A stretch of DNA of 64,000 nucleotides from Acidobacteriota bacterium. GTDB taxonomy: Bacteria; Acidobacteriota; Blastocatellia; UBA7656. The position numbers were made by a program, and so were the translations under genes. The stretch covers positions 1-64,000 of the forward strand of contig JACQDB010000138.1 in assembly GCA_016201275.1 (NCBI GenBank), written 5' to 3'. Numbering within the stretch: the first letter of the stretch is position 1; every line of letters starts with the position of its first letter. This document shows, one piece after another, positions 5,727 through 62,671 of this stretch. Under the pieces are notes generated by a model, which saw only the letters and a list, made by a program, of their open reading frames with translations, searched no databases and was not told where the DNA came from.

Positions 5727-5746
5727 GCTTTCGTCTTCACAGGCTC

Positions 5747-12306: not shown

Positions 12307-13047
12307 ATGAAGAAGCCGTTTCGATTCCTGTATATTTCCGTCCTTATCGGTTGTTTATGGTGCGCCAGCGCGCCCTTTGCAGAAGCCAAAAAATCATCCT
12401 CAAGAAAATCTTCGCACGCCAGAGCCGCGCATGGTCGCGGTTCCCGACACGAGCGCGGCAGTCGTGTTGGGTCGCGGCGCGGACGCCATGAAATAGCTCG
12501 ACGCGGCGGCAAAAAATTATCGCGCCGGGAACGACTGGCGCTGGCCAGAGAAGGACGACGCGGACGCGGCAGACATTCCCGACGCGGGCGCTATTATGTG
12601 GCGCGCTCGTATGCAGCACCGTCGCGCCACGAAGAAGCCTTGCGCGTTGTCGAAGAACCGCCGCTGCACGTTGGCGACGAAGACCCGCAGCCCGTCAATA
12701 CGCAATACAGCGCGCCGGTGCAGATGCCTGCGCCTGCGCCGGTGCTACGCCTTTCCGGCATTCCTGCCGAGCGCGTCAGCGAAATTCAAAACGCTCTGCA
12801 CAAGGCCGGTTATTACGAAGGCGAAATTTCAGGAGTCTATGACGAAACCACGCGCCAGGCGATGAAGCAATTTCAACAGGCCAACAATCTGCAAGCTTCG
12901 GGATTGCTTTCGGCGCACGCTTTGAAAAAACTCGGTGTTGCCAAACGCAAGAACGATGATTACGCCGTACCGGTCAAAGGCGCGGTGGATAAAGGAAAAG
13001 ATAAGACTTCGGCCAACGACGACCAGAACCATCTCGACAAGCACTAA
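12307..13047 (+). CDS. Secreted peptidoglycan-binding domain protein
   Basis: About 246 residues from the ATG at 12307, preceded by AAGGAGAG. A signal peptide (KPFRFLYISVLIGCLW...) leads into a long Arg/His/Gly/Ser-rich basic stretch (about 30-105), a Pro-rich linker, and a C-terminal PG_binding_1 domain (about 155-215) with the pattern IQNALHKAGYYEGEISG and AMKQFQQANNL. The domain binds cell-wall glycan or peptide; no catalytic domain is attached. The basic region could bind wall polymers or nucleic acid. A strong bidirectional hairpin follows the gene. Confidence 0.85.
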   Translation: MKKPFRFLYISVLIGCLWCASAPFAEAKKSSSRKSSHARAAHGRGSRHERGSRVGSRRGRHEIARRGGKKLSRRERLALAREGRRGRGRHSRRGRYYVARSYAAPSRHEEALRVVEEPPLHVGDEDPQPVNTQYSAPVQMPAPAPVLRLSGIPAERVSEIQNALHKAGYYEGEISGVYDETTRQAMKQFQQANNLQASGLLSAHALKKLGVAKRKNDDYAVPVKGAVDKGKDKTSANDDQNHLDKH

Positions 13048-13070
13048 CGCAAAATCAGCGCCGTTCCGGC

Positions 13071-13133
13071 GAAGATAAAAAAGCGCGTGGGAAGAAGCTG
13101 CGAACACTTCTTCCCACGCGCTTTTTTATCTTC
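13071..13133. terminator. Bidirectional rho-independent terminator, 27-bp perfect stem
   Basis: The arms 13071-13097 and 13107-13133 are exact reverse complements with a 9-nt loop. The stem contains GCGCG followed by TTTTTT on the plus strand, and the same arrangement on the minus strand. It lies 24 bp after the peptidoglycan-binding gene. Confidence 0.85.
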
Positions 13134-13190
13134 GCCCACGCGCTTTTTTATCTTCGCCCACGCGCTTTTTTATCTTCGCCCACGCGCTTT
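13112..13190. repeat. Tandem 22-bp repeat derived from the terminator arm
   Basis: The unit GCCCACGCGC-TTTTTTATCTTC recurs directly after the terminator at 13134-13155 and 13156-13177, followed by a partial copy (GCCCACGCGCTTT) to about 13190. The first copy is the terminator's own right arm, so the array looks like slippage or recombination of that arm. Confidence 0.85.
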
Positions 13191-13935
13191 GCTGATACCG
13201 CACAGCGCAACCGCGTGAGAGGCGCGATTGCAAATCAATCACGAAATCCCTTCACGATAAAAACCCCCAGGCTCACGAAGTCAAAAATAAATCCATCACC
13301 TTCATAATCCCGGTGTGCTTGGTGGTGGGAAAACAAATTTTGTTCGTAACTACCTGATCAGTAATTGCGGCTGTGCCGCTTTGATGTGCGGAAAGGCTGC
13401 GCCTTTCCGTAAGCTATGCTCCCCACTCTCGCGGCTACGCCGCCCGTGGGCTTCTGCCTTCAAACCCTTCTGAGGCACAGCCTACGGTGCGGCGGAGCCG
13501 CGAAAAAGTAGTGCCAGCTTACCGGAGAGTCCGAGACTCTCCGCACCTCAAAGCGGCACAGCCGCACAGCAATGAAGTTCCTTCGCAGCAAGCTGCGAGG
13601 TATCGAGAGGGTACGGTAATGAAAAGGAGGCGCAGCAAGCTGCGCGGAATTGCCCAACCCTCTTCAGATTAGAGCGTGTCGCATAAAGGAATTTTCTGCC
13701 CAGATATTGTATGTGATGATGTAACTATCCACAACATATAGGCTGTTGCTGGAGTTTTGCGACCTGCTCTATATGGGCGCTACACCAAGATATGGATGCC
13801 AAAATCCCGATTGAGCTTTCAACAATGGCAGGGATTCAAGATTCACAATCCATATCTTGGTGTAGCGCTCATTATAGTTACTTTTATTTTCAATCCTGAG
13901 CGGCGATCAATGACCGCCGCTCAACGCCTCGCCTG
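13190..13935. repeat. Repeat-rich gap with several inverted repeats, no gene
   Basis: GCGGCTGTGCCGCTTTGA near 13363 faces its complement near 13551. CGGAGAGTC/GACTCTCCG near 13520 is a 9-bp hairpin. A 21-bp perfect inverted repeat (GCGCTACACCAAGATATGGAT) occupies 13777-13797 and 13848-13868. GAGCGGCGATCAATGACCGCCGCTC near 13900 belongs to a family also seen at 19485 and 41811. No frame looks coding. Confidence 0.7.
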
Positions 13936-13952
13936 CGATTGACATCTCGAAG

Positions 13953-16364
13953 TTAGCGGTCGCCGCCGATTCGCAGTCGCAAGCCCGCACGGAAATTCAA
14001 ACGATACGCCGGAAATCCCAAGACCTCTTGATAATCCTGGTTCAAAAGATTTTCAAGGCGCGCAAAAGCCGTAACTCTAGGGCTGAAATGATACGACCCG
14101 GCGGCGTTCAATTTCGCATAGCCGTCGTTGAAAATCGCCTGCTTCGCGGCGTTGAAACGCGCCCCGCTTACCGGGTCCAGGTCGCGCCGTCGGCCAACCA
14201 ACGACCCATCCAACGACACCTCGAAGCGATTATCTATCCAACCGATTTCAAAACTGCCGGAATGACGCGGCCTCCGCAACAACGGCAACCCGACTTCTTT
14301 GCTGGTCGCGTCGGCGCGTTCCAAGCGCGAACGTAAAAAAGTGTAGCTCGCCGCTACGCGCAATTTCAAAGCCGGGCGGGCGGCGGCGATCAACTCAAGG
14401 CCACGCGCCGTCGCTCTTTCGACATTGACGAAGTTGGTCAATTTGCCGTCCGCCAATTTCACCGGGCCAAAGGTCTTGGGGTCGTAGATAAAAATAATCT
14501 GATCGCGGAAGCGGTTGTCGAAATAGGTCGCTTCAACACTGCCCCGGCGATTGAAAAATTCCTGCGCCACGCCGACCTCAAAACTGATGGCGCGTTCCGG
14601 TTTCAAACCGGGATTGCCCAGAAAAAAGGTGCTGGGGCTGAAAGCTTCCGTCAACGACGGTTCTTTGATGCCGGTTCCGAAACTGGCTTTCAATCGCGTC
14701 GCGCCAAAGCCGCCTTCCTGATGTCGTCGCGCAAAATAAGCCAGCGCAACTTTCGGATTGGCTTTGCTGCCAAAGCCGATGTCGCCGATGGGCGCAGTGC
14801 TGCCCAGGCTCTGCAAAGCGGCGCGCAAATCGGCGGGAGTCCTGCCGGTGTTGCGTTCGACGCGAACTCCGGCGGTGACAAACAAACGCTCGCGCCAGGC
14901 GTGTTGGTCTTGCACGTACAAGCCTAAATTATTTCTCTTGGGCGAGACGCGGCTGAAATCGCCCGTAAAGACTGCCGATTCATGTTCAAAGTCCACGCCT
15001 GCGGTTAAGAGGTTGGCCGAAGACAAGGCAGCGATGGTTTGATACTGAAAGCCTGCGCGTTTTTGATGGTCTATAAAACTGAAAACGAAATCGTTGCCGA
15101 ACGAACCGGGCGCAAGCAAGGGCGTGTTGGGCTTGCTCAAATCCTCGGCTGCCGTGTCAAAACTATGAGTCTGGAATTCCGCCAGAATGAAGCGCGCCGT
15201 TTGTTCCCAACGCGCTGTTGTGCGATGACGAAACTGCGCCGCCAGAGAAAGATCATGATGCTTCTGTCTTTGCGTGGGGTCGGCAAAGAGGCGCGCCGTC
15301 GCGCCGGGAACGCCCAGCGTGTTGTTGTTCAAACGCGAAGTCACACGCAAATCGGCTTGCGGCGCAAGTTTGAATCCCAGATTGAGCGAGGCCGAGCGGT
15401 TGGTGTAATCGCTGTTGCGAAATCTGCCATCGGTGTGTTGATACGCATAGCTGCTTGAGTAATCAAACCACCGCGCCAAACCCGAAAAGATTGCCGTTTC
15501 TCGATGCGAAGCGAAGCTACCGCCATCGCCGGAAAGTTCCAGTTCAGGGGTTGCGGTGGCACCACGTCGGGTAAAAAGCTGGATCACGCTGGTCATCGCA
15601 TCCGAGCCGAAGAGGGCGCTTTGCGGACCGCGAGCGACTTCGACGCGCTCCAGATTTTCCGGCGTCAAAGTGGCGAAGTCGAACGCGCCTCCGGCGGCAT
15701 TGACCGGCACGCCGTCAATCAACACCTTGTTGTAATCGGATTCACCGCCTCTGGTGAAGATGGAGGTCAAGCCGCCGCGCCCACCGGTTTGCACCACTGC
15801 AAGGCCGGGAACCAGGCGCAAGGCTTCGGAGATTTGCGAATCGCTATTGCGTTTGAAATCGTCTTCGCTGATGACCGCAACTGCACCCGCCACTTCATTG
15901 GAAGAGGTAGCGGTGCGAGTTGCCGAAACGACGATTTGATCGCTGACCGCCGCCACCGCCATCTCGACATCGGCGCGCTTGGTTTCATTGGCGCGCACCT
16001 CTACGAAAAGTTTTTCAGTTTGCGAAAAGCCTTTCGCTTCGACGGTCAACAGGTAGCGGCCTTCACGAAGGCGGAAGGCAAAATGTCCTTGATGATCGGT
16101 TGACGATTGCGCCACCGCCGCGCCTACGGCATCGCGCAAGACCACGCGAGAGGCGGCGATACCCGCGCCGGTCTGGTCTGTGATCGTGCCTTCGATGCGC
16201 CCGAAATTATCGGCGGCAAAAGCAAGCGTGGAAGCGTTGCACGAAATGACGAGCAGCAGCACGAGGGCAGCCCGTAAAGCGACAGCCAAGCGACTGCCAG
16301 GGGGAGGGGATAAAAATTTGTTAAACACAGAAGTTCTCCTTTTCCGCGAAAGAGTGATCAACAC
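13953..16364 (-). CDS. btuB: TonB-dependent vitamin B12 receptor (BtuB-like)
   Basis: An 803-residue outer-membrane receptor. A signal peptide (about 1-50) is followed by a carboxypeptidase-regulatory-like domain (GRIEGTITDQTGAGI, about 55-135), a TonB plug (about 145-260, with SQISEALRLVPGL and LIDGVPVNA), and a 22-strand beta barrel ending in a terminal aromatic-type strand. The cobalamin riboswitch directly upstream identifies the substrate class, and the inner-membrane btuFCD genes lie nearby. The added N-terminal domain is common in Bacteroidota and Acidobacteriota receptors. Confidence 0.9.
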   Translation of the reverse strand: MLITLSRKRRTSVFNKFLSPPPGSRLAVALRAALVLLLVISCNASTLAFAADNFGRIEGTITDQTGAGIAASRVVLRDAVGAAVAQSSTDHQGHFAFRLREGRYLLTVEAKGFSQTEKLFVEVRANETKRADVEMAVAAVSDQIVVSATRTATSSNEVAGAVAVISEDDFKRNSDSQISEALRLVPGLAVVQTGGRGGLTSIFTRGGESDYNKVLIDGVPVNAAGGAFDFATLTPENLERVEVARGPQSALFGSDAMTSVIQLFTRRGATATPELELSGDGGSFASHRETAIFSGLARWFDYSSSYAYQHTDGRFRNSDYTNRSASLNLGFKLAPQADLRVTSRLNNNTLGVPGATARLFADPTQRQKHHDLSLAAQFRHRTTARWEQTARFILAEFQTHSFDTAAEDLSKPNTPLLAPGSFGNDFVFSFIDHQKRAGFQYQTIAALSSANLLTAGVDFEHESAVFTGDFSRVSPKRNNLGLYVQDQHAWRERLFVTAGVRVERNTGRTPADLRAALQSLGSTAPIGDIGFGSKANPKVALAYFARRHQEGGFGATRLKASFGTGIKEPSLTEAFSPSTFFLGNPGLKPERAISFEVGVAQEFFNRRGSVEATYFDNRFRDQIIFIYDPKTFGPVKLADGKLTNFVNVERATARGLELIAAARPALKLRVAASYTFLRSRLERADATSKEVGLPLLRRPRHSGSFEIGWIDNRFEVSLDGSLVGRRRDLDPVSGARFNAAKQAIFNDGYAKLNAAGSYHFSPRVTAFARLENLLNQDYQEVLGFPAYRLNFRAGLRLRIGGDR

Positions 16365-16374
16365 AGATTGTCGC

Positions 16375-16628
16375 GCAGGTCTCCTGACTTAGTGCCACGT
16401 CAACAGTCGCCCGTCTGTAGTCGGCAGTCAGTTTTTGACTTCGGTAATCAGCTATTCCCAAAAAATCGCTAATCGCAAAAGCGCAAACTCGACTACGGAC
16501 TACGGACTAGGGACTACGGACTCCTCAGCCAACGCCTTCCCGCAATTGCTCGCAGTGGCTTCGTGGTTGGCTTCGTTGCACATCACAGTTGCGGGACAGT
16601 GGCGCATTCGCAACGCCTTCCCCACAAC
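16375..16628 (-). promoter_or_regulatory. Cobalamin riboswitch upstream of btuB
   Basis: On the minus strand the RNA contains GCGCCACTGTCCCGCAACTG (about 16628-16580), a GCCACTG B12 box region near 16556, and the 3' segment AAGTCAGGAGACCTGC ending about 16375, all hallmarks of the cobalamin riboswitch. A long variable insertion with CTACGGACTACGGACTA-type repeats separates the halves. Adenosylcobalamin binding would shut down btuB, about 10 nt downstream. Confidence 0.88.
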
Positions 16629-16683
16629 GACAACCTCGAATTTGCACAGCACTATAAAAAATACCGGCGCACGCAAAAGCCTT

Positions 16684-16708
16684 GAAACCGGCTACACTAG
16701 CCGGTTTC
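16684..16708. terminator. Hairpin after the btu operon
   Basis: GAAACCGGCTA (16684-16694) and TAGCCGGTTTC (16698-16708) form an 11-bp stem with a 3-nt loop, 12 bp past the end of the DUF71 gene on the minus strand. A weak T-rich tail follows on that strand, so it probably ends the btu transcript. Confidence 0.65.
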
Positions 16709-16719
16709 GTGTCACCTGG

Positions 16720-17421
16720 TTATTTTCGCTCGCCAGTTGACAGGTCTTCGGGCAATAAATCACAGAAGGCAAAGCCGTCGCGGAAAACGGTTTCACCAAG
16801 GCGAAACATTACCGCCTCTTGAAAAATCGGCCCGTCAAAAACAAAGGTGTGAAACTCGCCGTTCTCGCCGCACGGATCAACCGTGGCCGGAAGCCTGGCG
16901 AGGAAATCCCGGTCAATCAATTGACCGGCAAACGCGCCATCCAGTGCCGCAGGGTTGACGCAGGTCACCACCGCTTTGAATCCCAAATCAATAAACCGCC
17001 GGATAAACTCAGCGGTGTTTTGTTGCCACACCGGAAACACGCAGCGCATATTCAGCGGCGCTAACAGTCGCTCTCTATACTCCTTGATGTCCTGCAAAAA
17101 CAGATCGCCAAACCCCACGGACGCAATTCCCTGCTGACGAAAAGTTGTGAGAGCGGCTTTCATCTGCGCTTCATACTCTTGATTGTCCGCGCCTTTCGAG
17201 ATCGCCACCTGATGCAGCGGCAGTCCCAAAGCCTCGGCCTGTTGCTCCAGCAATTCGCGCCGCACTCCGTGCATACTGATGCGGTCATAATCGCGGGTCA
17301 CGGTGGTCAACAAAGCCACCGCTTCATAATCCTGCGAGTGCAAAATTTCGTAGAGCGCCAGGCAGCTATCTTTGCCGCCGCTCCATGAGACCACCACTTT
17401 TTCTTTCCTCATCACCTTCAT
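16720..17421 (-). CDS. DUF71/COG2102 PP-loop ATP-binding protein (Dph6-related), B12-linked
   Basis: A 233-residue PP-loop protein with SGGKDS at 14-19, which binds ATP and activates a carboxyl or similar group by adenylation. Conserved features of the family are visible: ISMHGVRRELLEQQAEALGLP, GVGFGDL-like SVGFGDLFLQDIKEYRE and CGENGEFHTFVFDGP. Eukaryotic and archaeal members make diphthamide; bacteria lack diphthamide, and comparative genomics has linked bacterial DUF71 proteins to B12 salvage. Here it overlaps btuD by 4 nt (ATGA) and closes a riboswitch-controlled B12 locus, which supports that role. The exact reaction is unproven. Confidence 0.85.
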   Translation of the reverse strand: MKVMRKEKVVVSWSGGKDSCLALYEILHSQDYEAVALLTTVTRDYDRISMHGVRRELLEQQAEALGLPLHQVAISKGADNQEYEAQMKAALTTFRQQGIASVGFGDLFLQDIKEYRERLLAPLNMRCVFPVWQQNTAEFIRRFIDLGFKAVVTCVNPAALDGAFAGQLIDRDFLARLPATVDPCGENGEFHTFVFDGPIFQEAVMFRLGETVFRDGFAFCDLLPEDLSTGERK

Positions 17422-18221
17422 TTGCCGTTCCTGTTTTCCAGCGTCATCTGCGGCGGCGCGACAACCGTCACCCGTGGCGCGTGACTGACCGGATTCTGAT
17501 CAACCAAAAGTTTCGCCTCGAACAGCGCGCATAGATGGGCTTCGGTCATCACCTCGTCGGGCGTGCCGCAAGCCAACATCTCGCCCGCTTGCAACAACAG
17601 AACCCGCGAGGCAAACTCCGCCGCGAGGTTCAACTCGTGAGTCACTACGATGGCAGCTAACCCTTCTTCATGAGCCAGGCGTCGCGTCAGTTCCAACAGT
17701 TTCACTTGATGCGAAATATCGAGGTTGGCTATCGGTTCGTCCAACACCAGCAGGCGCGGACGCGAAGCCAACGCCCGCGCCAACGTCACGCGCTGACGTT
17801 CGCCGCCCGATAATTCATGCACCAGACGACAGGCGAACGCATAGGTTTCGGTCATCTCCATTGCGCGTTTCGCTTCGTGAAGATCATCGTCGGTTTCAAA
17901 ACCCAGCAAGCGACCTTGTGCGAAGCGACCTTGCAAAACAAACTCCATAGCCGTCAACGGAAACCGCACAATAGTTTCTTGCGCGACATAGCCAAGCCAT
18001 CGCGCCAGCAATTTTCGCGGCAGCGTCTTCAGATTTTTTCCATCCAACAAAACTTCGCCGCGACTCGGTGCCAGCAACCCGATGAGGATTTTCATCAGCG
18101 TGCTTTTGCCTGCACCATTTGGTCCCAACACGGCAAGCACCTCGCCGCGTTGCAGTGTGAACGAGATGCCTTTCAACACCGCCGCCTGATAATCAAATCG
18201 AATGTCTTTTACTTCCAGCAT
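17418..18221 (-). CDS. btuD: Cobalamin ABC transporter ATP-binding protein BtuD
   Basis: About 267 residues from MLEVKDIRF (ATG at 18221); the frame allows five more residues. Walker A GPNGAGKST near 33-41, signature LSGGERQRV near 137, Walker B LLVLDEPIANLD just after, and the switch His in VVTHEL. FecE/BtuD-type ATPases power cobalamin or siderophore import; the riboswitches and btuC/btuF neighbours argue for B12. It couples with the permease at 18377-19393. The C-terminal 30 residues extend beyond the core domain. Confidence 0.93.
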   Translation of the reverse strand: MLEVKDIRFDYQAAVLKGISFTLQRGEVLAVLGPNGAGKSTLMKILIGLLAPSRGEVLLDGKNLKTLPRKLLARWLGYVAQETIVRFPLTAMEFVLQGRFAQGRLLGFETDDDLHEAKRAMEMTETYAFACRLVHELSGGERQRVTLARALASRPRLLVLDEPIANLDISHQVKLLELTRRLAHEEGLAAIVVTHELNLAAEFASRVLLLQAGEMLACGTPDEVMTEAHLCALFEAKLLVDQNPVSHAPRVTVVAPPQMTLENRNGK

Positions 18222-20548: not shown

Positions 20549-20667
20549 AATAAAAAGCTCCTGCCGTTGCCCGCATGAGAAGGCGTCAGGCAGGAGCTTT
20601 GGAGATGTGCAGATAGAACAAGCGCCTGTAACTCTGACTCCTTCACGCGAAGAGCAACGAGTTGAAT

Positions 20668-20861
20668 AACAGCGGGCAGGTCTCCTGACTTAGCTCTGCG
20701 AAGCGGATGTTGACAGCAAATCCGTGCGCGTGGTGACGGCCTTCCCGGCTTCCGGCCAGTGGCGCAATGGTCACCTGTGAGTCATTACAGTTGCGGGACA
20801 GTGTGGGATTCGCACCCACTTCCCTATTCTCCCTTTTGCGAAGGGCACCCGTAGTTTATCG
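20668..20861 (-). promoter_or_regulatory. Cobalamin riboswitch upstream of btuF
   Basis: The minus strand carries GGGTGCCCTTCGC, GTGCGAATCCCACACTGTCC, CGCAACTGTAATGACTCACAGG, then GCGCCACTGGCCGGAAGCCG (the B12 box) and finally CTAAGTCAGGAGACCTGCCC. These are the diagnostic segments of the cobalamin riboswitch in order and at normal spacing. It should repress btuF when adenosylcobalamin is abundant. Confidence 0.95.
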
Positions 20862-21065
20862 AATCCTCAAACAGCAATTTGCGAACAGGCAACATAGCAC
20901 GCCCTTTTACGGCGCGTCAAATTCCGCCAACGACGAATTGCCCGGTGTCCTGCAAGATTCCGAAGTGCGCCGCACAAGCTTTGACCGCCGCGCAAGCTTC
21001 GCGTAAGTTATGACGGTCAGCGCTTGACAATGTAGCGCGACGCCTCAGCACAGGAGCGTGAATTT

Positions 21066-32252: not shown

Positions 32253-33133
32253 CGCCGAAGCGGCGGCACAAATTTATTCCATCGGCAATGCTAAAAGGTA
32301 ATGCCGAAGGATTAATGCTTGAGCCTTTTTCAGTTTTTGTGGCGCTCTGGTATGTTGCGTGAAGGCTCCTAATGATGGTGGATGAAATAACCTGCAAAAC
32401 TTGAGAAATTTTCCAATGCCTTGTACGGGCGACCACCGCAGGGTCGCCCGTACAGGGTTGCACATTATGTAATCCACCATCCTAAGATGTTGTATGCCAT
32501 TGCGATGGACAGCACAACATATTGATACTTTTCACGGGAACTACGGGGAGTCGCTTTTGTTTAACTCCGTAGGAGCGACCTGTCTATAGTAATGGAAAGC
32601 AAAAAATTCTCTAGCTCCGTAGGAGCGACCCGTATTTGCAACGCCACTACGGGTCGCTCCTACGGAGCTACAAAATCCAGTTTGTGCTACGTGCTATAGA
32701 CAGGTCGCTCTTATGGAGCTAAGGCGGCGCAATTAATCTTTCGTCGAACCTTACTTTTTTCGCCTTACCCGCACACTAAAATTTTTCCCGCCTTCAAGGT
32801 GGCGTTGAGCAACACTTCGCGCCAGCCTCGCTGGTACTCAGTGGCACAAACCTTGGCCTCGCGTGCAGCAAAAAGCGCTGTCGCTGTGCGCGACTTGATT
32901 GACTTCCCCGGCGTCTCGGTCGCATCATACCAAGCGATTAGCAACAGCAAAAATAAAGCGATGCGGGTGAATGAACGCATAACCATTGCTCTTGTGAGGT
33001 AGGAATCTGAGTGATTTTTTTTCGGCACGGATGGAGAGCAACGGGATTGCAGCACCACTATCAATCGGAAGATTTTTTTTGCGCTCGTAGCTAACCGACG
33101 ATGCAAGTTTGAAAAAGGAATTGCAAAGCGACA
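32253..33133. repeat. Repeat-rich gap with REP-like and nested inverted repeats
   Basis: TGTACGGGCGACC (32422-32434) faces its complement at 32442-32454, the same core as the element at 2906. A 25-bp pair with CTCCGTAGGAGCGACCTG arms (32565-32589 and 32694-32718, two mismatches) encloses a perfect 23-bp pair (32612-32634 and 32648-32670). On the minus strand a frame from 32980 to 32765 gives a 71-residue signal-peptide-like protein (MRSFTRIALFLLLL) that I cannot support as a gene. Confidence 0.75.
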
Positions 33134-49208: not shown

Positions 49209-50116
49209 TCTATCTCGGACTCAACAACGAAGAGAAAGACCAGCGCATCGTCAACTATTGTGCGGCGGCGAACCTTGACAAGGTGTTCGTGCTGTCGCCC
49301 GCGAAGTTCCGCTTCGGCTGCTCGTTTGCCAACCATGAGCACATCGAATGGGCGGAGATCATTCTGTATAAATTCTTCTACCGCCTGCTCCAGGAGATCA
49401 ACAGCCGGACGCTGCTGGTCATCAACGAATGCCTACGGACGCAGAACCGCTATGACCTGACCTATAACTGCATCCGCCATTTCCTGAACCAGACGGAGCA
49501 TCAATTGATTTTCCAGTATTTGCCGATGATTGAAGAAGCGGAGGATTTCATGATCCTCTTCGATTTTGACACTCGCAGTCGCTGGAAGCGCGAGAAATTT
49601 AATGTCGAGTTATTGGCGGAAAGTCAGATTCAGATGAAGCCGGTGACGATTTCTTTCCACCCTTATTTGATTGAAACGGACAGCGAGACGAAGGGTGCTT
49701 ATCAGAAAGAGAAAGAGCGACTCATCTCTACCATCGGCTTGAAAGACCCGCACACGATTCCTCGCAATCTCTATTTGATGAGTGGCAAGACCAAGCTTTT
49801 CCACGTCGGCATAGACTCGCTCTTTGGCGATGAATCTTATTATATTGGGCGAAACAATCGCTTCAAATTATCAAACCTGCAAATCTACAAAGAGATGGCG
49901 TATCCGCATACGCCCTACACGGTGTTTGAGTTTTGTCACAACTTTATTGACTTCGCGGACTTCCTGACGCTATCGGGGCAGACAAGCTTGACGGTGCTAA
50001 CAACGGATTTGAAGGTCGATAACTGGTACCTTGAGCGGTACCAGAAATGGACGGAGAGACTGGCGGATGTTACGACAGGTTTACAACAACAAGAGCGTGT
50101 TGGTTGCGGCGCGTGA
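49205..50116 (+). CDS. Hypothetical protein between helicase and PP-loop gene
   Basis: A 303-residue protein that I do not recognise. It starts MIYLGLNNEEKDQRIVNYCA and contains RTLLVINECLRTQNRYDLTY, which resembles a Walker-B-like strand followed by an Asn-Glu, but no Walker A is visible. Later LISTIGLKDPHTIPRNLYLM and YIGRNNRFKLSN suggest a nucleotide-binding or nucleic-acid-binding fold. It overlaps the helicase by 4 nt and the PP-loop gene by 50 nt. Its place between the helicase and IbrA-like gene suggests a shared complex. Confidence 0.55.
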   Translation: MIYLGLNNEEKDQRIVNYCAAANLDKVFVLSPAKFRFGCSFANHEHIEWAEIILYKFFYRLLQEINSRTLLVINECLRTQNRYDLTYNCIRHFLNQTEHQLIFQYLPMIEEAEDFMILFDFDTRSRWKREKFNVELLAESQIQMKPVTISFHPYLIETDSETKGAYQKEKERLISTIGLKDPHTIPRNLYLMSGKTKLFHVGIDSLFGDESYYIGRNNRFKLSNLQIYKEMAYPHTPYTVFEFCHNFIDFADFLTLSGQTSLTVLTTDLKVDNWYLERYQKWTERLADVTTGLQQQERVGCGA

Positions 50117-51191
50117 GCGCATCTCGTTCGTGTTCGACAACTTTGAGAATATCATTGTGTCGATCAGCGGGGGCAAGGACAGCACGGTGCTGGCTCATTT
50201 GGCGCTACAGGAAGCGCGACGCCGTAGTCGCAAAATCAACCTATTCTTTCTCGACGAAGAGGTGGTCTATCAAAGCACAATTGATCAGATCGAGTACCTG
50301 ATGGCTCTCTATCCTGAGAACACGAATCGCCTGTGGTTGCAGATCGAGTTCCGGCTAACGAATGCCACATCGGTTGAAGAAGGGCAACTCATTTGCTGGG
50401 AGGCGGGCCGGCACAAAGACTGGATGCGCCCGAAAAAGTCCTGGGCGATCCAGCATCGGATGTGGGCGCTCGAAGAGCAAACGGTGCGCGACAAAAACAA
50501 GGGCTTCGGTTTCTATGATGTGATCGAAAACTTCGAGCGTTGCTATCAAAACACGGCCTTCCTGGTCGGTGAACGCGCCACCGAGAGCCCGAATCGCTGG
50601 CGCTCGGTCGCAAAGAACCCGGTCAATATCAACGGGCAGCAAATCTACTGGGGCACCCGGAGGGGCGCAAACTGGTTACTCAAACCGATTTGTGACTGGA
50701 ACTTTCATGATGTTTGGCGTTACATCTGGGACGAGAAGCTGCGTTACTCCAAAATCTATGATTACCAGTTCAAGAAGGGGTATTCGATAAATGAAATGCG
50801 CGTCAGTAGCCTGATTCACGAACGCTCCTTCAAGTCCATTTGCGACCTGCCAGAGTTTGAACCGAAGACCTACGCGAAGTTATGTAAACGGATCAAGGGT
50901 ATTCAATTCGCCCAGGAGACCGGCAAGAACGCCAAGATGTTTCGGGCGCGCAAGCTGCCGAAGAACTATAAATCCTGGGTTACCTATCGCGATTTTTTAC
51001 TTGATACCTATCCAGACGCAAGTAAGAAACCGATCTTCGTACGGCGCTTTGCCCGGCATCTGACAAACGAGTTCGTGGCGCGGCAGCAGTGCCGGCAACT
51101 GATCCTCAACGACTACGAGAACAACCTGCCGGTCGAGAACGTGCCGGACCCTCGCGAGGCGACGATCCGGTATTACATGGAGGTATTATAA
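50067..51191 (+). CDS. PAPS-reductase-fold PP-loop protein (IbrA/DUF3440-like)
   Basis: About 374 residues from the ATG at 50067 with GGAGAG ahead; a TTG at 50031 would add 12 unlikely residues. SGGKDS at 34-39 is the PP-loop. The DUF3440 signature follows: ICDWNFHDVWRYIWDE, MRVSSLIHERSFKSI, LPEFEPKTYAKLCKRIKGI and KLPKNYKSWVTYRDFLLDT. Family members (IbrA) travel with a ParB-like IbrB partner, here at 51192. The fold suggests ATP-dependent activation as in sulfur transfer (DndC is related), but the reaction is unknown. It is directly adjacent to the ParB-like gene. Confidence 0.85.
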   Translation: MLRQVYNNKSVLVAARERISFVFDNFENIIVSISGGKDSTVLAHLALQEARRRSRKINLFFLDEEVVYQSTIDQIEYLMALYPENTNRLWLQIEFRLTNATSVEEGQLICWEAGRHKDWMRPKKSWAIQHRMWALEEQTVRDKNKGFGFYDVIENFERCYQNTAFLVGERATESPNRWRSVAKNPVNINGQQIYWGTRRGANWLLKPICDWNFHDVWRYIWDEKLRYSKIYDYQFKKGYSINEMRVSSLIHERSFKSICDLPEFEPKTYAKLCKRIKGIQFAQETGKNAKMFRARKLPKNYKSWVTYRDFLLDTYPDASKKPIFVRRFARHLTNEFVARQQCRQLILNDYENNLPVENVPDPREATIRYYMEVL

Positions 51192-52458: not shown

Positions 52459-52557
52459 AAAATTCACATAATGTAAAAATAACGCTTGACTCTCAATTTC
52501 ACATAATGTTATAAACAGTCATCCCGCGAGGGAAATAAAAACCGAGGAGAAAAGATA
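52459..52557 (+). promoter_or_regulatory. Promoter with direct operator repeats
   Basis: TTGACT (52486-52491), 17 bp, TTATAA (52509-52514). TTCACATAATGT occurs at 52463-52474 and 52498-52509, 35 bp apart, each containing the palindrome ACAT-A-ATGT; the second covers the -10. A repressor, perhaps the XRE protein at 53745, could bind both. The SD ACCGAGGAGA lies just before the ATG at 52558. Confidence 0.7.
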
Positions 52558-52779
52558 ATGAAATACCAAATCGTAACAAAAATTAACGGCGACGGTGACG
52601 AATACGTTGAAATATTTAACAACATCGCTGACGACAACTCCCCAGTGTGGGAGTTGAACGGAGCGGAAATTTCTATCGAAACGAGCGACGCTGACGAAAT
52701 TATAAGCGTCGAGGTTCTGGACTCGGAAAACTCCGAGGACTTGGCCAGCATTCAATACTATGGCCTTGGCCTTTCCTGA
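52558..52779 (+). CDS. Small acidic protein, hairpin-rich gene
   Basis: A 73-residue acidic protein (MKYQIVTKINGDGDEYVEIF, then WELNGAEISIETSDADEI). It follows an excellent SD (GAGGAGA). The coding DNA holds several perfect stems: CAACTCCC/GGGAGTTG (52635-52656), CGACGCT/AGCGTCG (52686-52711) and CTCGGA/TCCGAG (52722-52737). No family recognised. It may be a small DNA-mimic-like acidic protein, but its RNA could matter as much as its protein. Confidence 0.6.
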   Translation: MKYQIVTKINGDGDEYVEIFNNIADDNSPVWELNGAEISIETSDADEIISVEVLDSENSEDLASIQYYGLGLS

Positions 52780-52822
52780 CCACATCAACCCCCGCTCTAT
52801 AATAGCCAATCAGGTTGCGAGA

Positions 52823-52915
52823 CCCTGCCAAAACTCGCTTGAATCGAACCAATGTGGAATGCCTTACCCGTAGCCTTAGGGCTAAATCCAGCGGGTGAGG
52901 GGTGGAGGTGAGGAA
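52823..52915 (+). ncRNA. Structured leader RNA, copy A
   Basis: ACCCG (52866-52870) pairs with CGGGT (52892-52896), and TAGCC/GGCTA (52871-52875 and 52880-52884) closes a TTAG tetraloop. The sequence AATCCAG is a one-sided bulge, and TGAGGGGTGGAGG follows with a ribosome binding site. Copy B has the same layout with compensatory base changes. Confidence 0.65.
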
Positions 52916-53200
52916 ATGTATCAAGAAATAGAAGAAGATTTTATGCCGCTAACGAACGGCTTGCCCCTAGCGCGATTACTACCAGTCGTGCTGGCGGGCG
53001 GCGTCGAAACCGTGGCGCTAGTGCGCCGCGAGGGGTGCAAAATAGATGGATGGGAGACGGTAGAAACTGTCTCCCGCGTCGAGGTCTGGAGCGGCGACTG
53101 GAGGGAGTTGCCGTTCCCGTACCTAGAAGCCCTCTACCCATCAGGGTTGGAGGTGTGGGCGCGGTTAAAACCCGCGATCCGCAAACTGGCGGTGGCTTAG
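52916..53200 (+). CDS. Small hypothetical protein, hairpin-rich gene
   Basis: About 94 residues from the ATG at 52916, behind GGAGGTGAGG. The protein (MYQEIEEDFMPLTNGLPLAR, LPVVLAGGVETVALVRREGC, WSGDWRELPFPYLEALYPSG) is unrecognised. The DNA contains GGGAGACGG/CTGTCTCCC (53052-53075), GGCGC/GCGCC with tetraloop TAGT (53014-53027) and CCAG/CTGG (52982-52994). It lies under the structured leader A. Confidence 0.55.
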   Translation: MYQEIEEDFMPLTNGLPLARLLPVVLAGGVETVALVRREGCKIDGWETVETVSRVEVWSGDWRELPFPYLEALYPSGLEVWARLKPAIRKLAVA

Positions 53201-53228
53201 TCAATAAAATGTGAATCTAACCCCCCCA

Positions 53229-53330
53229 CCCTGCATCGCATTAGGCGTGGCCGCGAAGGTAATGCAGGGCCTTGAGCAGTGAACCCTCCCCGTAGGCGCA
53301 AGCTTAAATCCAGCGGGTGAGGGGTGGAGG
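53229..53330 (+). ncRNA. Structured leader RNA, copy B
   Basis: CCCTGCAT (53229-53236) pairs with ATGCAGGG (53262-53269). Downstream CCCG (53289-53292) pairs with CGGG (53314-53317), and TAGGC/GCTTA (53293-53297, 53302-53306) closes a GCAA tetraloop. AATCCAG and TGAGGGGTGGAGG are identical to copy A. CCCT (53284-53287) can also pair with AGGG (53320-53323) next to the SD. Confidence 0.7.
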
Positions 53331-53336
53331 ATTGTG

Positions 53337-53621
53337 ATGATCCAGATAAACAAGCTAGAAGAAGATTTTGACGGTATAACCGTCAAAATCTCACCAGAAA
53401 GGGAAAAAATAGTTGTGTGGGTTGAAGGAAAACCTACACTTTTCACCAGTTCGGATGAACTGGTGAATTCACGCAAGACAAGTAGGTTAAAAGCGCACAT
53501 CCTACGAGATGTGCATGGGAACGAAACGGATGACCACGTTTCTACTCTCTGGAAACGGAGAAAATTGTACGTAATAACGGACAAAACAAGTCCGTACTAT
53601 GGGGAAGTACGGGCTTACTAA
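53337..53621 (+). CDS. Small hypothetical protein in hairpin-dense DNA
   Basis: About 94 residues from the ATG at 53337, six nt after GGAGG; a GTG at 53334 is too close. Nearly the whole gene folds into perfect stems: a 13-bp stem (53363-53391), an 11-bp stem with GGAT loop (53442-53467) nested in AACCTAC/GTAGGTT (53431-53437, 53482-53488), GCACATC/GATGTGC (53495-53514), GAAACG/CGTTTC (53523-53542), TCTCTG-GAAA-CGGAGA (53546-53561) and two alternative stems at 53577-53614. The protein itself is unrecognised. It could also be a structured RNA. Confidence 0.5.
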   Translation: MIQINKLEEDFDGITVKISPEREKIVVWVEGKPTLFTSSDELVNSRKTSRLKAHILRDVHGNETDDHVSTLWKRRKLYVITDKTSPYYGEVRAY

Positions 53622-53683
53622 ATATACGCCTGACCTTTACCACTTCCGGGCGCAAAGTGGACTGGATTACATGATGCGCCCCC

Positions 53684-53742
53684 GCCCTGCATACGGTCAG
53701 TATGGACGTAGGTGCAAAACCAATGCGGGGCCTTAGGAGGCC
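53684..53742 (+). ncRNA. Structured leader RNA, copy C
   Basis: GCCCTGCAT (53684-53692) pairs with ATGCGGGGC (53723-53731, one G-U). GGCCT/AGGCC (53729-53733 and 53738-53742) can form an alternative hairpin that sequesters AGGAGG, the SD of the XRE gene. The first stem shares its sequence with copy B. Confidence 0.6.
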
Positions 53743-53744
53743 AA

Positions 53745-54395
53745 ATGACACCGGGAAAATTAAAACAACGCCGCGCCGCTCTCGGCTTCAACCAGACCCA
53801 ATTGGGCGAACGCTGGGGAATGAAGCCCTCAGCAATCGCCCGATTGGAAGCAAACGGCATCGGCTCCGTCAGCGCCCGGCCCCTGTTGTACGACTGCGCT
53901 CTGGCCGGGCTTGAATGGCGAAGTGAAATCGTCGGGCTGATTCGCTTCACGGTTGAGGTCAAGCCCGGACTCGAATTCGCCGTCGTTGTAGCGCGATTCA
54001 ACGACGCAGGTAGAGCGATTGAAACGAGCGAGGGCGAACCGGTTGCATCGTTTCATACCGCGCTGACGGAGCTTCGCGGCGCGGTGCTGGATGCGCGGTT
54101 AGAGCAGCACAACTCAATGCACCCTGCCCGTGTGGAATGCGCGCTTGAAACCAAGTCAATCCTGAAGCGTCGCGCCTTTGAGATGCTGGTCAGCGGCGCA
54201 AGCGAAATCGAAACGGCGTCGGCAGAGTATGCCTATGCGACTCTGTGCGACAATTTCGGCGTTGAATATGAGCGCCATGATTATTTCGATAACAGTTTTT
54301 GCGCCACGTTCCGGCGCGACGATGGCCGGTTAATTTGCGTGGGCAGCAGTGAGCCGCGCAAGAGCGCGAAGGAATTTTTTGTAGTTGAGTTGTAG
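53745..54395 (+). CDS. XRE-family transcriptional regulator
   Basis: About 216 residues from the ATG at 53745 behind TAGGAGG. The N-terminal HTH (LKQRRAALGFNQTQLGERWG, SAIARLEANG) is of the XRE/Cro type. The larger C-terminal part is not recognised (FAVVVARFNDAGRAIETSEG, FEMLVSGASEIETASAEYAY). Phage-type regulators with this plan act as repressors. A structured leader that can hide its ribosome binding site suggests extra control at translation. The TTCACATAATGT repeats at 52463 and 52498 are candidate operators. Confidence 0.78.
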   Translation: MTPGKLKQRRAALGFNQTQLGERWGMKPSAIARLEANGIGSVSARPLLYDCALAGLEWRSEIVGLIRFTVEVKPGLEFAVVVARFNDAGRAIETSEGEPVASFHTALTELRGAVLDARLEQHNSMHPARVECALETKSILKRRAFEMLVSGASEIETASAEYAYATLCDNFGVEYERHDYFDNSFCATFRRDDGRLICVGSSEPRKSAKEFFVVEL

Positions 54396-54445
54396 CAACC
54401 TTGCCAGCGTCAGGATTGATACGACGCTGGCGTTACAATAACGTA

Positions 54446-54479
54446 GCCCTGCCCGGTGCTGGTAACACCGAGGCAGGGC
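54446..54479 (+). terminator. Strong hairpin after the XRE gene
   Basis: GCCCTGCC (54446-54453) and GGCAGGGC (54472-54479) with an inner CGGTG/CACCG stem form a long stem with one bulged A. CCCG and CGGG segments follow (about 54484-54511). It has no T-run, so it may be a leader structure rather than a terminator. Confidence 0.5.
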
Positions 54480-54573
54480 GTAACCCGAAGCGATGGGGTA
54501 AGCACCGCAACGGGCAGATGTTTTTATCACATCCTCTGCCATTGTGCCTACCCCGTCGCGTTGCGAGTGAGCA

Positions 54574-57888: not shown

Positions 57889-58905
57889 TCATTTGACCTC
57901 CCGAAACACAACCGGTAACTCCTCATCGTCCACGTTTACCGCAATCGGCGGGAGCCACTTCAGGATAATGTTTCGATCAGTCGAATCTCGTTTGCCAATC
58001 CAGTAGCTATGCCAGTGGGCGCGGCGTACGTGCGTGCGCGGGCTGGCGTGAGTGCCGTTGGCGGATTCGCCACGCTCCTGCTCGTGGGCGTGTCGGATGG
58101 CCGCGCCCAGCCGAAACCCCACATCCCAGATTGTCGGAGATTGAGCCGGGATCAATTTTTTGCCGCGCCTGGTTTTCGTCAGACCGGGATTGCGAGGCCG
58201 ACGGTCTGTCCCCTTTTCGTCTCGAATTTCCGAGTTGAGAGAGCACAGGTAAAGGAGAAGCGAGACCAGGGGCGCGAGAACCCCGGCTTGCTCTTTGGCG
58301 TGATCCTCAATCGGCACATCGAACGCAGCACCGTGTTTACGCGCCTGGTGTCGCGCTTCAATCAACGAGGCTTCGACCCCTTCCCGCAGGGTTCCGTGCG
58401 TGAGGTGCACGAAAAATGGCAGCAGGCCGACGTCCAGATCGGCGACGATCCGCAGCTCCTCAGCGCCGGTATTGGCATCCTCATCCAGATACGCGAAGAA
58501 GCCGCGAAGCGAAAATGCTGCGTTGACCCGTGAGGGCGTTTCGATATAGACGCACCATTCGGGCAGCCGGTAGAGAACCTCAACCGGAATTGTTGAATCA
58601 ATCGGCGTATCCCAGAGTGCCTGAAAAATTGTTTCGTCAAACCGGTAGATGCCGCGAGTCATCCGCCAGGCAGCGAGCGCGGCGATAATTGAAACATCCA
58701 TCACTTTGTCGGATTCTGCTGGAGACAATTCTTGACCGCTACCGACAATTGCGTACGCACCGGCCACCGGCAGGTAAACATAGTCCGCCCAATTTTTCAG
58801 AGTCTTGCCTTTTGAAGCGCGGAACATTGCTGCCTGTTCCCACGCCCGGGGATACAGGCGACTGTAATGCTGTAAAATTTCCAGAGGTCTTGGAGTCAAG
58901 AGCAA
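57889..58905 (-). CDS. AcrVA2-family anti-CRISPR-like protein
   Basis: A 338-residue protein matching AcrVA2 in several places: AAWRMTRGIYRFDETIF near 95, LYRLPEWCVYIET near 130, LLLYLCSLN near 225 and HVRRAHWHSYWIGK plus LKWLPPIAVN near the C-terminus. AcrVA2 of Moraxella binds nascent Cas12a and drives decay of its mRNA; the length (322 in the type protein) agrees. Homologues occur in many phages and plasmids, some in hosts without Cas12a, so activity cannot be assumed. It is on the minus strand with its promoter near 58906-59050. Confidence 0.82.
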   Translation of the reverse strand: MLLTPRPLEILQHYSRLYPRAWEQAAMFRASKGKTLKNWADYVYLPVAGAYAIVGSGQELSPAESDKVMDVSIIAALAAWRMTRGIYRFDETIFQALWDTPIDSTIPVEVLYRLPEWCVYIETPSRVNAAFSLRGFFAYLDEDANTGAEELRIVADLDVGLLPFFVHLTHGTLREGVEASLIEARHQARKHGAAFDVPIEDHAKEQAGVLAPLVSLLLYLCSLNSEIRDEKGTDRRPRNPGLTKTRRGKKLIPAQSPTIWDVGFRLGAAIRHAHEQERGESANGTHASPRTHVRRAHWHSYWIGKRDSTDRNIILKWLPPIAVNVDDEELPVVFREVK

Positions 58906-59643: not shown

Positions 59644-60276
59644 ATGTCCACAGTCTTCAGTTTGAAAGACCTCACACGGCGCATCAAGCTCGAAGCGATC
59701 AAGCTCGATCCCCAAAACGCACGTTCGCATAATGAACGCAACCTGGAATCCATCAAGAACTCTCTAATTGAGCATGGACAGGTCGAGCCGCTGATTATTC
59801 GCAAGGCAAACAACCGGCTGATCGGTGGTGAGGGTAGGTGGCGCGCCATGCGCGAACTCGGATGGACGGAAGCCGAGGCGGTGGTTCTCGACATACCGGC
59901 GAAGGCCGCGCGCAAGCTCGCCATCCGGCTCAACCGCACGGCGGAACTCGCCGAATGGAACTTCGAGCATCTGGTGGACAACTTTCGCGAAATCGGCGAA
60001 TCGTTCGATTTCTCGCTGCTCGGCTTCGAACCGCATGAGGTGGAGCCGCTGCTGAAAGCCAGTTGGACGCCGCCTGAGATCGTTGATCTGCCGACCAAAA
60101 AAGGGCAGAAGCATTCGCCAATTGCGCTTTCGGATGAGGAGCGACAGGCAATTGACAAGGCGATTGGCAAATGTCAGACGCTTCAAGGTGTGAAGTTGGG
60201 CGATGGCGCGGCCTTAAAAATCATCTGTGAGTTCTATCTGAATAATGTCAGGGCAGGCAAAGGGAAAAAAGCATAA
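59644..60276 (+). CDS. ParB-like nuclease-domain protein
   Basis: A 210-residue protein with a ParB N-terminal domain: LDPQNARSHNERNLESIKNS, HGQVEPLIIR, LIGGEGRWRAMRELGW and EAVVLDIPA in order (about 22-85). The C-terminal part is helical and basic at the end (AGKGKKA). ParB-like genes often accompany phage modification genes; here it precedes the DpdA-like gene and overlaps it by 32 nt. It may bind DNA or act as an endonuclease; the catalytic status is unclear. Confidence 0.82.
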   Translation: MSTVFSLKDLTRRIKLEAIKLDPQNARSHNERNLESIKNSLIEHGQVEPLIIRKANNRLIGGEGRWRAMRELGWTEAEAVVLDIPAKAARKLAIRLNRTAELAEWNFEHLVDNFREIGESFDFSLLGFEPHEVEPLLKASWTPPEIVDLPTKKGQKHSPIALSDEERQAIDKAIGKCQTLQGVKLGDGAALKIICEFYLNNVRAGKGKKA

Positions 60277-60994
60277 ACCGGCGCTGCTCGTCTCCTTTGT
60301 TTATGTACGCAACTTCCTGCGTTTTCAGGATCGGCTCGAATATCGGGATTGGGTTCTGGACTCAGGGGCTTATTCGGCCTTCAATAGCGGCATTGAAATC
60401 AGGCTATCTGAATATATTCAATTTGCGAAGTCGCAGAGGGCAAAAGACGGTACGCTGAAAGAGATTTTTTCGCTCGACGTGATTGGCGATTACCGCGCCG
60501 GACTTCGCAATACCGAGCAGATGTGGAGCGCCGGAGTCGAGGCAATTCCCTGCTATCACTACGGCGAGCCGGAGTGGTTATTAACGGAACTGGCTTCCAG
60601 TTTCCCAAAGATTGCGCTCGGCGGTTGTGCCAATGTAACGGTTGAGCAAAAAATAAAATGGGCGGCGCAGTGTTTTGCCCGCGTCTGGCCGAAGCAGATT
60701 CATGGTTTTGGCTTTGGCAGCGACCGGTTTATTAAAGAGCTTCCGTTTCACTCGGTGGATTCAACCAGTTGGTGTATAGCCCCCCTGGGTTTCGGCAAGT
60801 GGCGAGCCTTCAATTACAACGCGCTTCGCAGTAAAAGCGTAACCATACGCGCAGAGATTGACTGGTACATGAAACTCGAAAGAGAGATGCAGGCGCGATG
60901 GAAGAATGCGATGCGCGAGATCAATGCCTCGCTTCCGGCCATTCGTCTTGCGGTAAGCGGCACAACCCAGATCAAGTATTTTCGGAATGCATGA
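60245..60994 (+). CDS. dpdA: DpdA-like 7-deazaguanine DNA transglycosylase
   Basis: A 249-residue TIM-barrel-like protein resembling the short phage DpdA/TGT-related group. The key strand is VLDSGAYSAF (37-46, Asp39 as candidate nucleophile or general acid), followed by SLDVIGD (76-82), AIPCYHYGEPEW, IALGGCANVTVEQK and HGFGFGSDRF. TGT enzymes exchange guanine for a 7-deazaguanine in tRNA; DpdA does so in DNA. The queC-queD-queE-folE genes immediately downstream make preQ0, which supports the call. TGT zinc Cys residues are not obvious. Family call by motif and context. Confidence 0.75.
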   Translation: MSGQAKGKKHKPALLVSFVYVRNFLRFQDRLEYRDWVLDSGAYSAFNSGIEIRLSEYIQFAKSQRAKDGTLKEIFSLDVIGDYRAGLRNTEQMWSAGVEAIPCYHYGEPEWLLTELASSFPKIALGGCANVTVEQKIKWAAQCFARVWPKQIHGFGFGSDRFIKELPFHSVDSTSWCIAPLGFGKWRAFNYNALRSKSVTIRAEIDWYMKLEREMQARWKNAMREINASLPAIRLAVSGTTQIKYFRNA

Positions 60995-61674
60995 TGGCAG
61001 AGCGCACGGGCAAAGTTTTACTCTATTCGGGCGGCATGGACAGCTTCGCGCTGCGCCACATCTGGAAGCCGGACGTTACGCTCTATGTCAACCTGCATAC
61101 GGCGTACAGTGAACGAGAAATTTCACGCCTTGACGATGGGGTAACGGTCGTGGATTGTCCGCTGCTGAGAGAGTTCGAGCGCCCGAACAAGATTATCCCG
61201 CTACGCAATCTCTTTCTGACCTGCATCGCCGCCCAATTCGGCAATGTGATCGCCATTGGCGCAACCGCTGGCGACCGGGTGCGCGACAAAGATTTTGAAT
61301 TTGCCAGCCGCACCAGCGATCTGTTGTCCTACATCTGGCGCCCCGATCACTGGACGGAAGGTAAGCACATTTGGATTGAATTGCCGTTCAAGCATCTTAC
61401 GAAAGCGCAGATAGTCGGCGAATTCATTCGGGCTGGCGGCGACGCTTCAGCCCTCGCAACCCAGTCTTTCAGTTGTTACGCGCCAGTAGATGGCAATGCC
61501 TGCGGCGAGTGCAAGCCCTGTTTTCGGAAATGGGTGGCCTTCAAGCTGAACGGCGTTGATATCCAGCCTTCGTCAGGTGATTACATCAGGCGTGTCATCC
61601 TGCCGCAGATCGAAAGCGGCATCTACGGAAGAAAAGAGGAAGAGCAGGAAATCCTCGCAGCAATTGCATTATGA
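60991..61674 (+). CDS. queC: 7-cyano-7-deazaguanine synthase QueC
   Basis: About 227 residues from the ATG pair at 60991, overlapping the dpdA stop by 4 nt; the open frame before it lies within dpdA. PP-loop SGGMDS at 13-18, GATAGDRVRDKDFEF, and a zinc-binding CYAPVDGNACGECKPCFRKW near the C-terminus, as in QueC. QueC converts 7-carboxy-7-deazaguanine to preQ0 using ATP and ammonia. The order dpdA-queC-queD-queE-folE makes a complete route to preQ0. Confidence 0.93.
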   Translation: MMAERTGKVLLYSGGMDSFALRHIWKPDVTLYVNLHTAYSEREISRLDDGVTVVDCPLLREFERPNKIIPLRNLFLTCIAAQFGNVIAIGATAGDRVRDKDFEFASRTSDLLSYIWRPDHWTEGKHIWIELPFKHLTKAQIVGEFIRAGGDASALATQSFSCYAPVDGNACGECKPCFRKWVAFKLNGVDIQPSSGDYIRRVILPQIESGIYGRKEEEQEILAAIAL

Positions 61675-62057
61675 GCTTCAGCTTGGAAAAAGAGTTTCGC
61701 TTTGAAGCCGCGCATCGGCTCGTCCATCACGACGGGCATTGCGCCCGATTGCATGGCCATAGTTGGCGCGGTCGCATCATCTGCGAAGGCAACCGGCTAT
61801 ATGAGGAAGGCCCAAAGAGGGGTATGCTCATTGACTACGCTGATATGAGCGCGGCACTGAGGCCAGTACTTGAAACGTATCTCGACCATCACTTTTTGAA
61901 CGAGACGCTGCAAACCGACAGCCCGACGAGCGAGGTGATTGCAGCAAAGCTTTTTTTCATGCTCGTCCAGGAGCTCCCGAACCTGACTGCGGTGGTGATC
62001 GAAGAGACGTGCACAAGCCGTTGCACGTTCCGCCCAGATCAATCATCTATCGTCTAA
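61671..62057 (+). CDS. queD: 6-carboxytetrahydropterin synthase QueD
   Basis: A 128-residue member of the 6-pyruvoyl-tetrahydropterin synthase family. Zinc ligands are His15 (AAHRL), His28 and His30 (LHGHSW), with the catalytic Cys24 between them, and DYADMSAALRP and YLDHHFLNET lie later. It converts dihydroneopterin triphosphate to carboxytetrahydropterin. It overlaps queC by 4 nt (ATGA) and shares one base with queE (TAATG). Length is normal. Confidence 0.94.
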   Translation: MSFSLEKEFRFEAAHRLVHHDGHCARLHGHSWRGRIICEGNRLYEEGPKRGMLIDYADMSAALRPVLETYLDHHFLNETLQTDSPTSEVIAAKLFFMLVQELPNLTAVVIEETCTSRCTFRPDQSSIV

Positions 62058-62671
62058 TGAGCGAAAAGCAATATTTTGTAAACGAAATCTTCGCATCCAT
62101 TCAGGGCGAAGGAGCGAGAGCAGGAACCGCAAATGTCTTCATCAGATTTGCGGCCTGTAATCTGGCCTGCAACGGCGAAGTAATTGACGGCGTATTGCAG
62201 CCGGTATGCGATACGCAATTCACCGGAGGCCGCAGGCTCACGGCGCAGCAGATCGTTGCAGAGGCGGCGGAAGTTGGTGGCAAGTGCAATTATGTAATCC
62301 TGACCGGCGGCGAACCGGCATTACAGATTGACGAAGAATTGATCGAAGCCCTGCACACCGCCGGATACCAAATCGCCATTGAGACCAACGGCACGAAGCC
62401 CCTGCCCAAAGGACTCGATTGGATCTGCGTCAGTCCAAAGACCGCCGACCACACGATTCAGGTTCTCGATTGCGACGAAGTGAAATTCGTTATCGGTGAC
62501 CGCCAGGCGCTGCCGAAAACCCAGATCCGCGCCACGCACTATTTCCTGTCGCCCGCCTGGGACGCCGACGGGTTGAAGCGGCAGACGCTCGACTGGTGTA
62601 TCGGTCTCGTTCGCCAAAATCCACGCTGGCGCTTGAGTCTGCAAATTCACAAATTGCTCAACGTCAGATGA
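62057..62671 (+). CDS. queE: 7-carboxy-7-deazaguanine synthase QueE
   Basis: About 204 residues from the ATG at 62057; a start at 62009 would lie inside queD. The N-terminus NEIFASIQGEGARAGTANVF is the usual QueE opening. The cluster-binding region FAACNLACNGEVIDGVLQPV-CDTQF has C-x3-C and a third Cys after a 12-residue insertion, a variant seen in QueE relatives. GGEPAL and ETNGTKPLP match radical-SAM motifs. The enzyme contracts the pterin ring to carboxy-deazaguanine using SAM and an iron-sulfur cluster. Confidence 0.9.
   Translation: MSEKQYFVNEIFASIQGEGARAGTANVFIRFAACNLACNGEVIDGVLQPVCDTQFTGGRRLTAQQIVAEAAEVGGKCNYVILTGGEPALQIDEELIEALHTAGYQIAIETNGTKPLPKGLDWICVSPKTADHTIQVLDCDEVKFVIGDRQALPKTQIRATHYFLSPAWDADGLKRQTLDWCIGLVRQNPRWRLSLQIHKLLNVR

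Follow-up and report, generated by a model that had tools for sequence, protein, structure and literature searches.

RNA folding may control the use of three small orphan genes in a candidate prophage operon

GOLLD and ROOL are large ornate RNAs of phages. Operons of the acr-aca type consist of small genes with a gene for a helix-turn-helix (HTH) protein placed last, and carry an inverted repeat in the promoter, often with a second copy (PMC9410906). An HTH repressor that binds both RNA and DNA in anti-CRISPR control is what Birkholz et al. 2024 announce in their title (cited as reference 76 in PMC12456014).

The window analysed here, the whole stretch of 64,000 nucleotides, contains at 52459-54395 a locus with features of each of these systems. 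As in acr-aca operons, an HTH gene follows small unrelated genes (P1-P3) on the same strand and would be co-transcribed with them, and TTCACATAATGT is located within the core promoter, as read by eye, with a further copy upstream. The setting is a prophage and a relative of AcrVA2 is encoded nearby. The locus is unlike an acr-aca operon in that its intergenic gaps of about 120-140 nt contain structured leaders and in that P1-P3 have no match to a known Acr in the libraries used. The HTH gene (53745-54395, plus strand, ATG start) encodes a 216-residue XRE/Cro-like regulator, which matches Pfam HTH_3 (E 1e-4, just below the cut-off) and PHROG repressors, is also HTH_31-like and resembles phage 434 Cro at E 0.14. 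In the libraries searched, from which dedicated Aca profiles were absent, it gave generic HTH matches and, as a further difference from acr-aca operons, none to a named Aca.

The protein described by Birkholz and colleagues, reportedly in Nature 631:670, is said to be Aca2 and to bind leader stem-loops. The present locus shares with that system hairpins at ribosome-binding sites, a putative operon ending in an HTH gene and operator-like DNA repeats at the promoter. It differs in that the leader hairpin lacks a TTCACAT operator, in that two leader copies are accompanied by extensive coding-region stems, and in that binding of RNA by the HTH protein is putative. With GOLLD and ROOL it has in common a long, highly folded stretch of prophage; it is unlike them in its overlap with coding frames, its serial local hairpins and its lack of an Rfam match, a scan of the region having returned nothing at gathering score and three meaningless matches at E up to 5.

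Our preferred reading, held tentatively and at somewhat less than an even chance, is that 52459-54395 forms one self-regulated prophage operon of the early or counter-defence kind, with an mRNA selected to fold and leaders that gate translation. In an acr-aca-like order, a promoter with two operators would serve three small orphan genes and a terminal Cro/XRE-type repressor. The operon mRNA would be under selection for local folding, with short stems filling the P2 and P3 coding sequences, a duplicated hairpin leader placed directly at the ribosome-binding site of each of these two genes, and another kind of Shine-Dalgarno hairpin before the HTH gene. Folding would most likely keep translation low, ordered and reliant on ribosomes or a regulator; RNA decay may be slowed as well. 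By analogy, the foremost candidate for binding the leader hairpins as well as the DNA operators would be the HTH protein that the operon itself encodes. The analysis suggests that RNA folding controls the virus's use of the three small orphan genes, to which we assign a putative counter-defence role.

The two copies of the operator-like repeat lie upstream of the promoter, at 52463, and inside its core, at 52498. The former, IR2 (TTCACATAATGTAAA, 52463-52477, plus strand), is a dyad and the only exact match to the pattern in the window. The latter, IR1 (TTCACATAATGTTAT, 52498-52512, plus strand; direct repeat D3), sits between the -35 and -10 elements, is an imperfect dyad and departs from the pattern at one position. 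When up to three mismatches are allowed the pattern matches six times in the window, against 1.67 expected. The sigma-70-like promoter TTGACT-18-TATAAA (52486-52515, plus strand) was read by eye; our promoter scan accepts only -10 elements whose sixth base is T, and this site is therefore missing from the scan list. Three sites in the region were returned by the scan, where chance would give 1.7; among them is a second promoter-like site, CTGACC-16-TATAAT (52776-52803, plus strand), which heads the E1 region and agrees with the consensus at 10 of 12 positions. A 5' hairpin, TCCCGCGAGGGA (52522-52533, plus strand), is predicted close to where the transcript is expected to start, in the fold of 52521-53745.

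The three small ORFs are each preceded by a Shine-Dalgarno ribosome-binding site, and for each the codon usage of frame 1 ranks top among the six. P1 (52558-52779, plus strand; coding score z 4.2) encodes a strongly acidic protein of 73 residues (pI 4.1). P2 (52916-53200, plus strand; z 3.5) encodes 94 residues and contains about seven consecutive RNA hairpins; P3 (53337-53621, plus strand), likewise of 94 residues, contains a string of perfect hairpins and has a weak coding score. The codon usage of the HTH gene is coding-like, as for P1 and P2. P2 and P3 are both exactly 285 nt long and have a common in-frame start, TAGAAGAAGATTTT, in which 14 identical nucleotides give (I/L)EEDF. No family match to P1-P3 was obtained in Pfam, PHROGs, NCBIfam or PADLOC, libraries that cover only part of the Acrs, and single-sequence AlphaFold predictions were uninformative (pLDDT 47 for P3 and 53 for P2).

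Leader E1 (52862-52908, plus strand; repeat D1) precedes P2, folds at -21.3 kcal/mol and scores 84.1 bits with model R1. It is 83% identical to the second copy, E2 (53284-53330, plus strand; repeat D1; -20.6 kcal/mol), which precedes P3 at a spacing of 422 nt. E1 consists of a 9-10 bp stem, an AAATCCA internal loop and a 4-5 bp apical hairpin, with the Shine-Dalgarno GGAGG directly after. A stretch of 25 nt that includes AAATCCAGCGGG and the Shine-Dalgarno is unchanged between the copies; neither the AAATCCAG loop nor the Shine-Dalgarno side varies. In the apical stem, TAGCC/GGCTA of E1 becomes TAGGC/GCTTA in E2 with pairing maintained; in this comparison of two leader copies one change is two-sided (C-G to G-C) and one is one-sided (G-C to G-U). 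Pattern search identified a hairpin upstream of E2 (CCCTGCAT...ATGCAGGG, 53229-53269, plus strand) and a similar one, E3, before the HTH gene (CCCTGCAT...AATGCGGGG, 53685-53730, plus strand; both in alignment A1). The Shine-Dalgarno of the HTH gene is within GGCCTTAGGAGGCC, just downstream of the E3 hairpin. In the predicted full-transcript ensemble the Shine-Dalgarnos of P2 and the HTH gene are mostly paired; that of P3 is predicted to be partly open, which counts against our preferred reading.

The locus drew attention through the hairpins within its small genes. In P3 the 13-bp stem with a 3-nt loop (53363-53391) is present as described, as is the 11-bp stem with a GGAT loop (53442-53467), nested in a 7-bp stem (53431-53489). 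Two further stems, at 53577-53614, had been proposed to be mutually exclusive and thus able to switch. Mutual exclusion is confirmed, with ACGGAC/GTCCGT (-8.2 kcal/mol) excluding GTCCGTACT/AGTACGGGC (-12.2 kcal/mol); since one stem is better by about 4 kcal/mol, a switch is possible rather than indicated. A second exclusive pair involves AACCTAC (about 53431-53437), for which the upstream GTGTGGGTT arm and GTAGGTT near 53483-53489 are alternative partners.

Folding was expected to exceed that of dinucleotide-shuffled controls, and this is so for 53300-53760, which folds at -164.3 kcal/mol where its shuffles average -120.7 (z = -7.7, 0/100). Because the protein sequence itself can impose folding on coding DNA, our main control was to shuffle synonymous codons so that neither the protein nor the codon usage changed. 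This gave z of -6.0 for P2, -8.0 for P3 and -3.0 for P1; values across runs ranged from -6.0 to -6.5 for P2 and from -6.7 to -8.0 for P3, and in a separate run none of 200 shuffles was as stable as either gene. Shuffles that also kept codon-junction dinucleotides left z at -5.5 for P2 and -4.0 for P3 (0/200 each) and at -1.8 for P1. Control segments of 285 nt, 75 in all and taken from other coding DNA of the window, have a mean z of -0.26 (sd 0.84, minimum -2.49). P2 and P3 are thus true outliers in folding and P1 is marginal, so that of the three genes originally singled out as structured, P1 is only mildly so.

The statement that such stems are denser here than elsewhere holds among coding DNA and within the prophage, but not against stronger inverted repeats between genes of the chromosome. 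A z-scan of the 204-kb contig showed stronger spots at about 2.9, 11.6, 13.1-13.5 and 32.5 kb. In the chromosomal part very strong intergenic inverted repeats are found at 2877-3045, 11585-11785, 13060-13144, 13367-13566 and 32369-32731, some with a GTACGGGCGACC core; these are long, lie outside the main ORFs and fold with near-equal strength on either strand. In the prophage part of the window 53.0-54.6 kb is the clear folding maximum. Unusual folding extends beyond the cluster first noted to an intergenic stretch 3' of the HTH gene (54395-54565, plus strand; z -7.2, -87.9 kcal/mol), which forms a long nested stem, has a z of -7.8 on the minus strand and is not followed by a T-run.

Comparison of the strands bears on whether selection acts on RNA or DNA. 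P2 folds at -140.7 kcal/mol on the plus strand and -105.0 kcal/mol on the minus strand, and the transcribed strand forms 18 G-U pairs to the five of the other; this asymmetry points to selection at the RNA level. For P3 the two strands give -98.0 and -90.6 kcal/mol with four and six G-U pairs, and neither P1 nor P3 has a G-U strand asymmetry. Since P1 and P3 are symmetric between strands, hairpin formation at the DNA level remains a candidate for these two genes. An explanation at that level, by template switching in phage replication or repair within fast-evolving orphan genes and with no role for RNA, appears rather unlikely to us. It would account for stems in P3 and P1 that are nearly all Watson-Crick and near-equal on both strands, for P2 and P3 bodies without detectable similarity despite near-identical leaders, and for a surrounding host chromosome rich in intergenic inverted repeats. 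It fits poorly with the G-U pairs of P2 and with the back-to-back stems of the small genes, a packing that the 75 other coding segments do not have; moreover, template switching would be expected beyond these genes too, and the skew switch that would mark a replication origin is absent at the cluster.

The original prediction offered a choice between mRNAs under structural control and a large structured RNA. The former is better supported because the P1 and P2 frames are coding-like, no ORF lacks a ribosome-binding site and structure remains in excess under the synonymous controls; the latter is still viable for P3, where codon usage is weakly coding (z 1.4). That the region as such yields one or more large structured RNAs, made for their folded form and with ORFs (P3 at the least) of secondary importance, is in our judgement improbable. 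The fold of 52521-53745 is a continuous stem array (-476.8 kcal/mol) and the leaders define two tandem units, but all three ORFs carry a start codon as well as a Shine-Dalgarno, and the hairpins are local and serial, have no conserved core and are not recognised by Rfam. More doubtful is a combined form, in which the strings of hairpins would be dual-coded functional RNA: besides specifying counter-defence proteins, the mRNA would offer a multi-hairpin decoy or scaffold to some host factor of defence or RNA processing. It is very unlikely that the leaders work without any link to the HTH protein, as riboswitches that sense a ligand or as simple attenuators. Each leader does have pyrimidine-rich sequence upstream of it (e.g. 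ACCCCCCCACCC) that complements the Shine-Dalgarno region and would allow alternative folds, but near-identical copies precede unrelated orphan genes, no metabolic gene is under their control and the region has no Rfam riboswitch match. Chance or base composition is scarcely credible; single windows of other phage DNA do reach z of -5 to -8, yet none of 200 synonymous shuffles was as stable for either P2 or P3 and no control segment is comparable.

The operon model with gated translation accounts for the leaders better than for the coding-region stems. The precedent for RNA binding by an HTH protein concerns leaders and not whole coding sequences, so that the model alone leaves the hairpins of the coding regions unexplained; slowing of translation, protection of the mRNA or a direct RNA function are possible roles for these stems. 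Phage counter-defence genes need fast expression and then shutdown. If the coding sequence itself, beyond the leader, is shaped to fold, this would constitute an additional layer of control, one that to our knowledge has rarely been documented in DNA phages. Synonymous-controlled folding in small prophage genes provides a search criterion free of homology, and the operon offers a concrete test of whether Aca-like HTH repressors other than Aca2 bind RNA.

Our conclusion rests on one genome. Protein, DNA, pattern and covariance-model searches found no relatives of P1-P3, the HTH protein or the leader, and searches with P2, P3 and the HTH protein across the phylum gave no credible match. The leader pattern had 11 exact matches in genome contigs and three in viral contigs, none with the upstream stem, and all scores of the leader covariance model against 396 genomes and 25 loci were at noise level. 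Viral matches to P3 (L003-L005) were rejected as a chance match to NKLEEDFD in a 314-residue phage protein, and DNA matches in relatives (L007 and L008) as chance matches, judged by eye, to an SBBP-type repeat gene and a dnaK-like gene. Phages that share the methyltransferase gene showed no such cluster at the equivalent position, and in phages with AcrVA2 or methyltransferase relatives structured spots are scattered. Two of these loci were examined closely and discarded: the spot in L038 is an intergenic repeat, and that in L025 is inside a likely terminase small-subunit gene.

The element hosting the operon is, by its gene content, an integrated tailed-phage genome. Terminase, portal, tail-sheath and tape-measure genes are found downstream of the cluster, and upstream or around it are genes for a phage helicase, a PAPS-reductase-like protein, ParB-like proteins, a methyltransferase-like protein and queuosine/7-deazaguanine synthesis. 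The last of these, phage TGT-like, QueC and QueE genes at 60245-62671, suggest DNA modification. The PAPS-reductase-like protein, encoded in the prophage early region (50031-51191), has weak similarity to DndC. About 4 kb from the cluster, 57889-58905 on the minus strand encodes the relative of AcrVA2 (E 1.4e-19 to PDB 7ci1, 253 residues), for which 26 relatives on viral contigs were retrieved. The likeness to AcrVA2 (PDB 7CI1) is a sequence relationship of the encoded protein, and the gene is a neighbour only, on the opposite strand and outside the operon.

The host has a type I-E-like CRISPR-Cas locus with cas1 on another contig of the same genome (C41, about 4500-18000; L076), with repeat CGGTTCACCTCCGCGTGTGCGGAGACCAT and an array broken by a coding stretch of about 0.9 kb. 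None of its readable spacers matches the contig with fewer than nine mismatches; these spacers do not target the prophage, and an argument from self-targeting is therefore absent. In the E1 region, 52836-52860 has a 25-nt exact match on a further contig of the genome (C22:1244-1268; L002). The match is situated between two 28-nt repeats 65 nt apart, an arrangement resembling a one-spacer CRISPR array, and this repeat has no other copy in the genome. Two cobalamin riboswitches, at 16357-16664 and at 20658-20867 on the minus strand, are located in the chromosomal part of the window.
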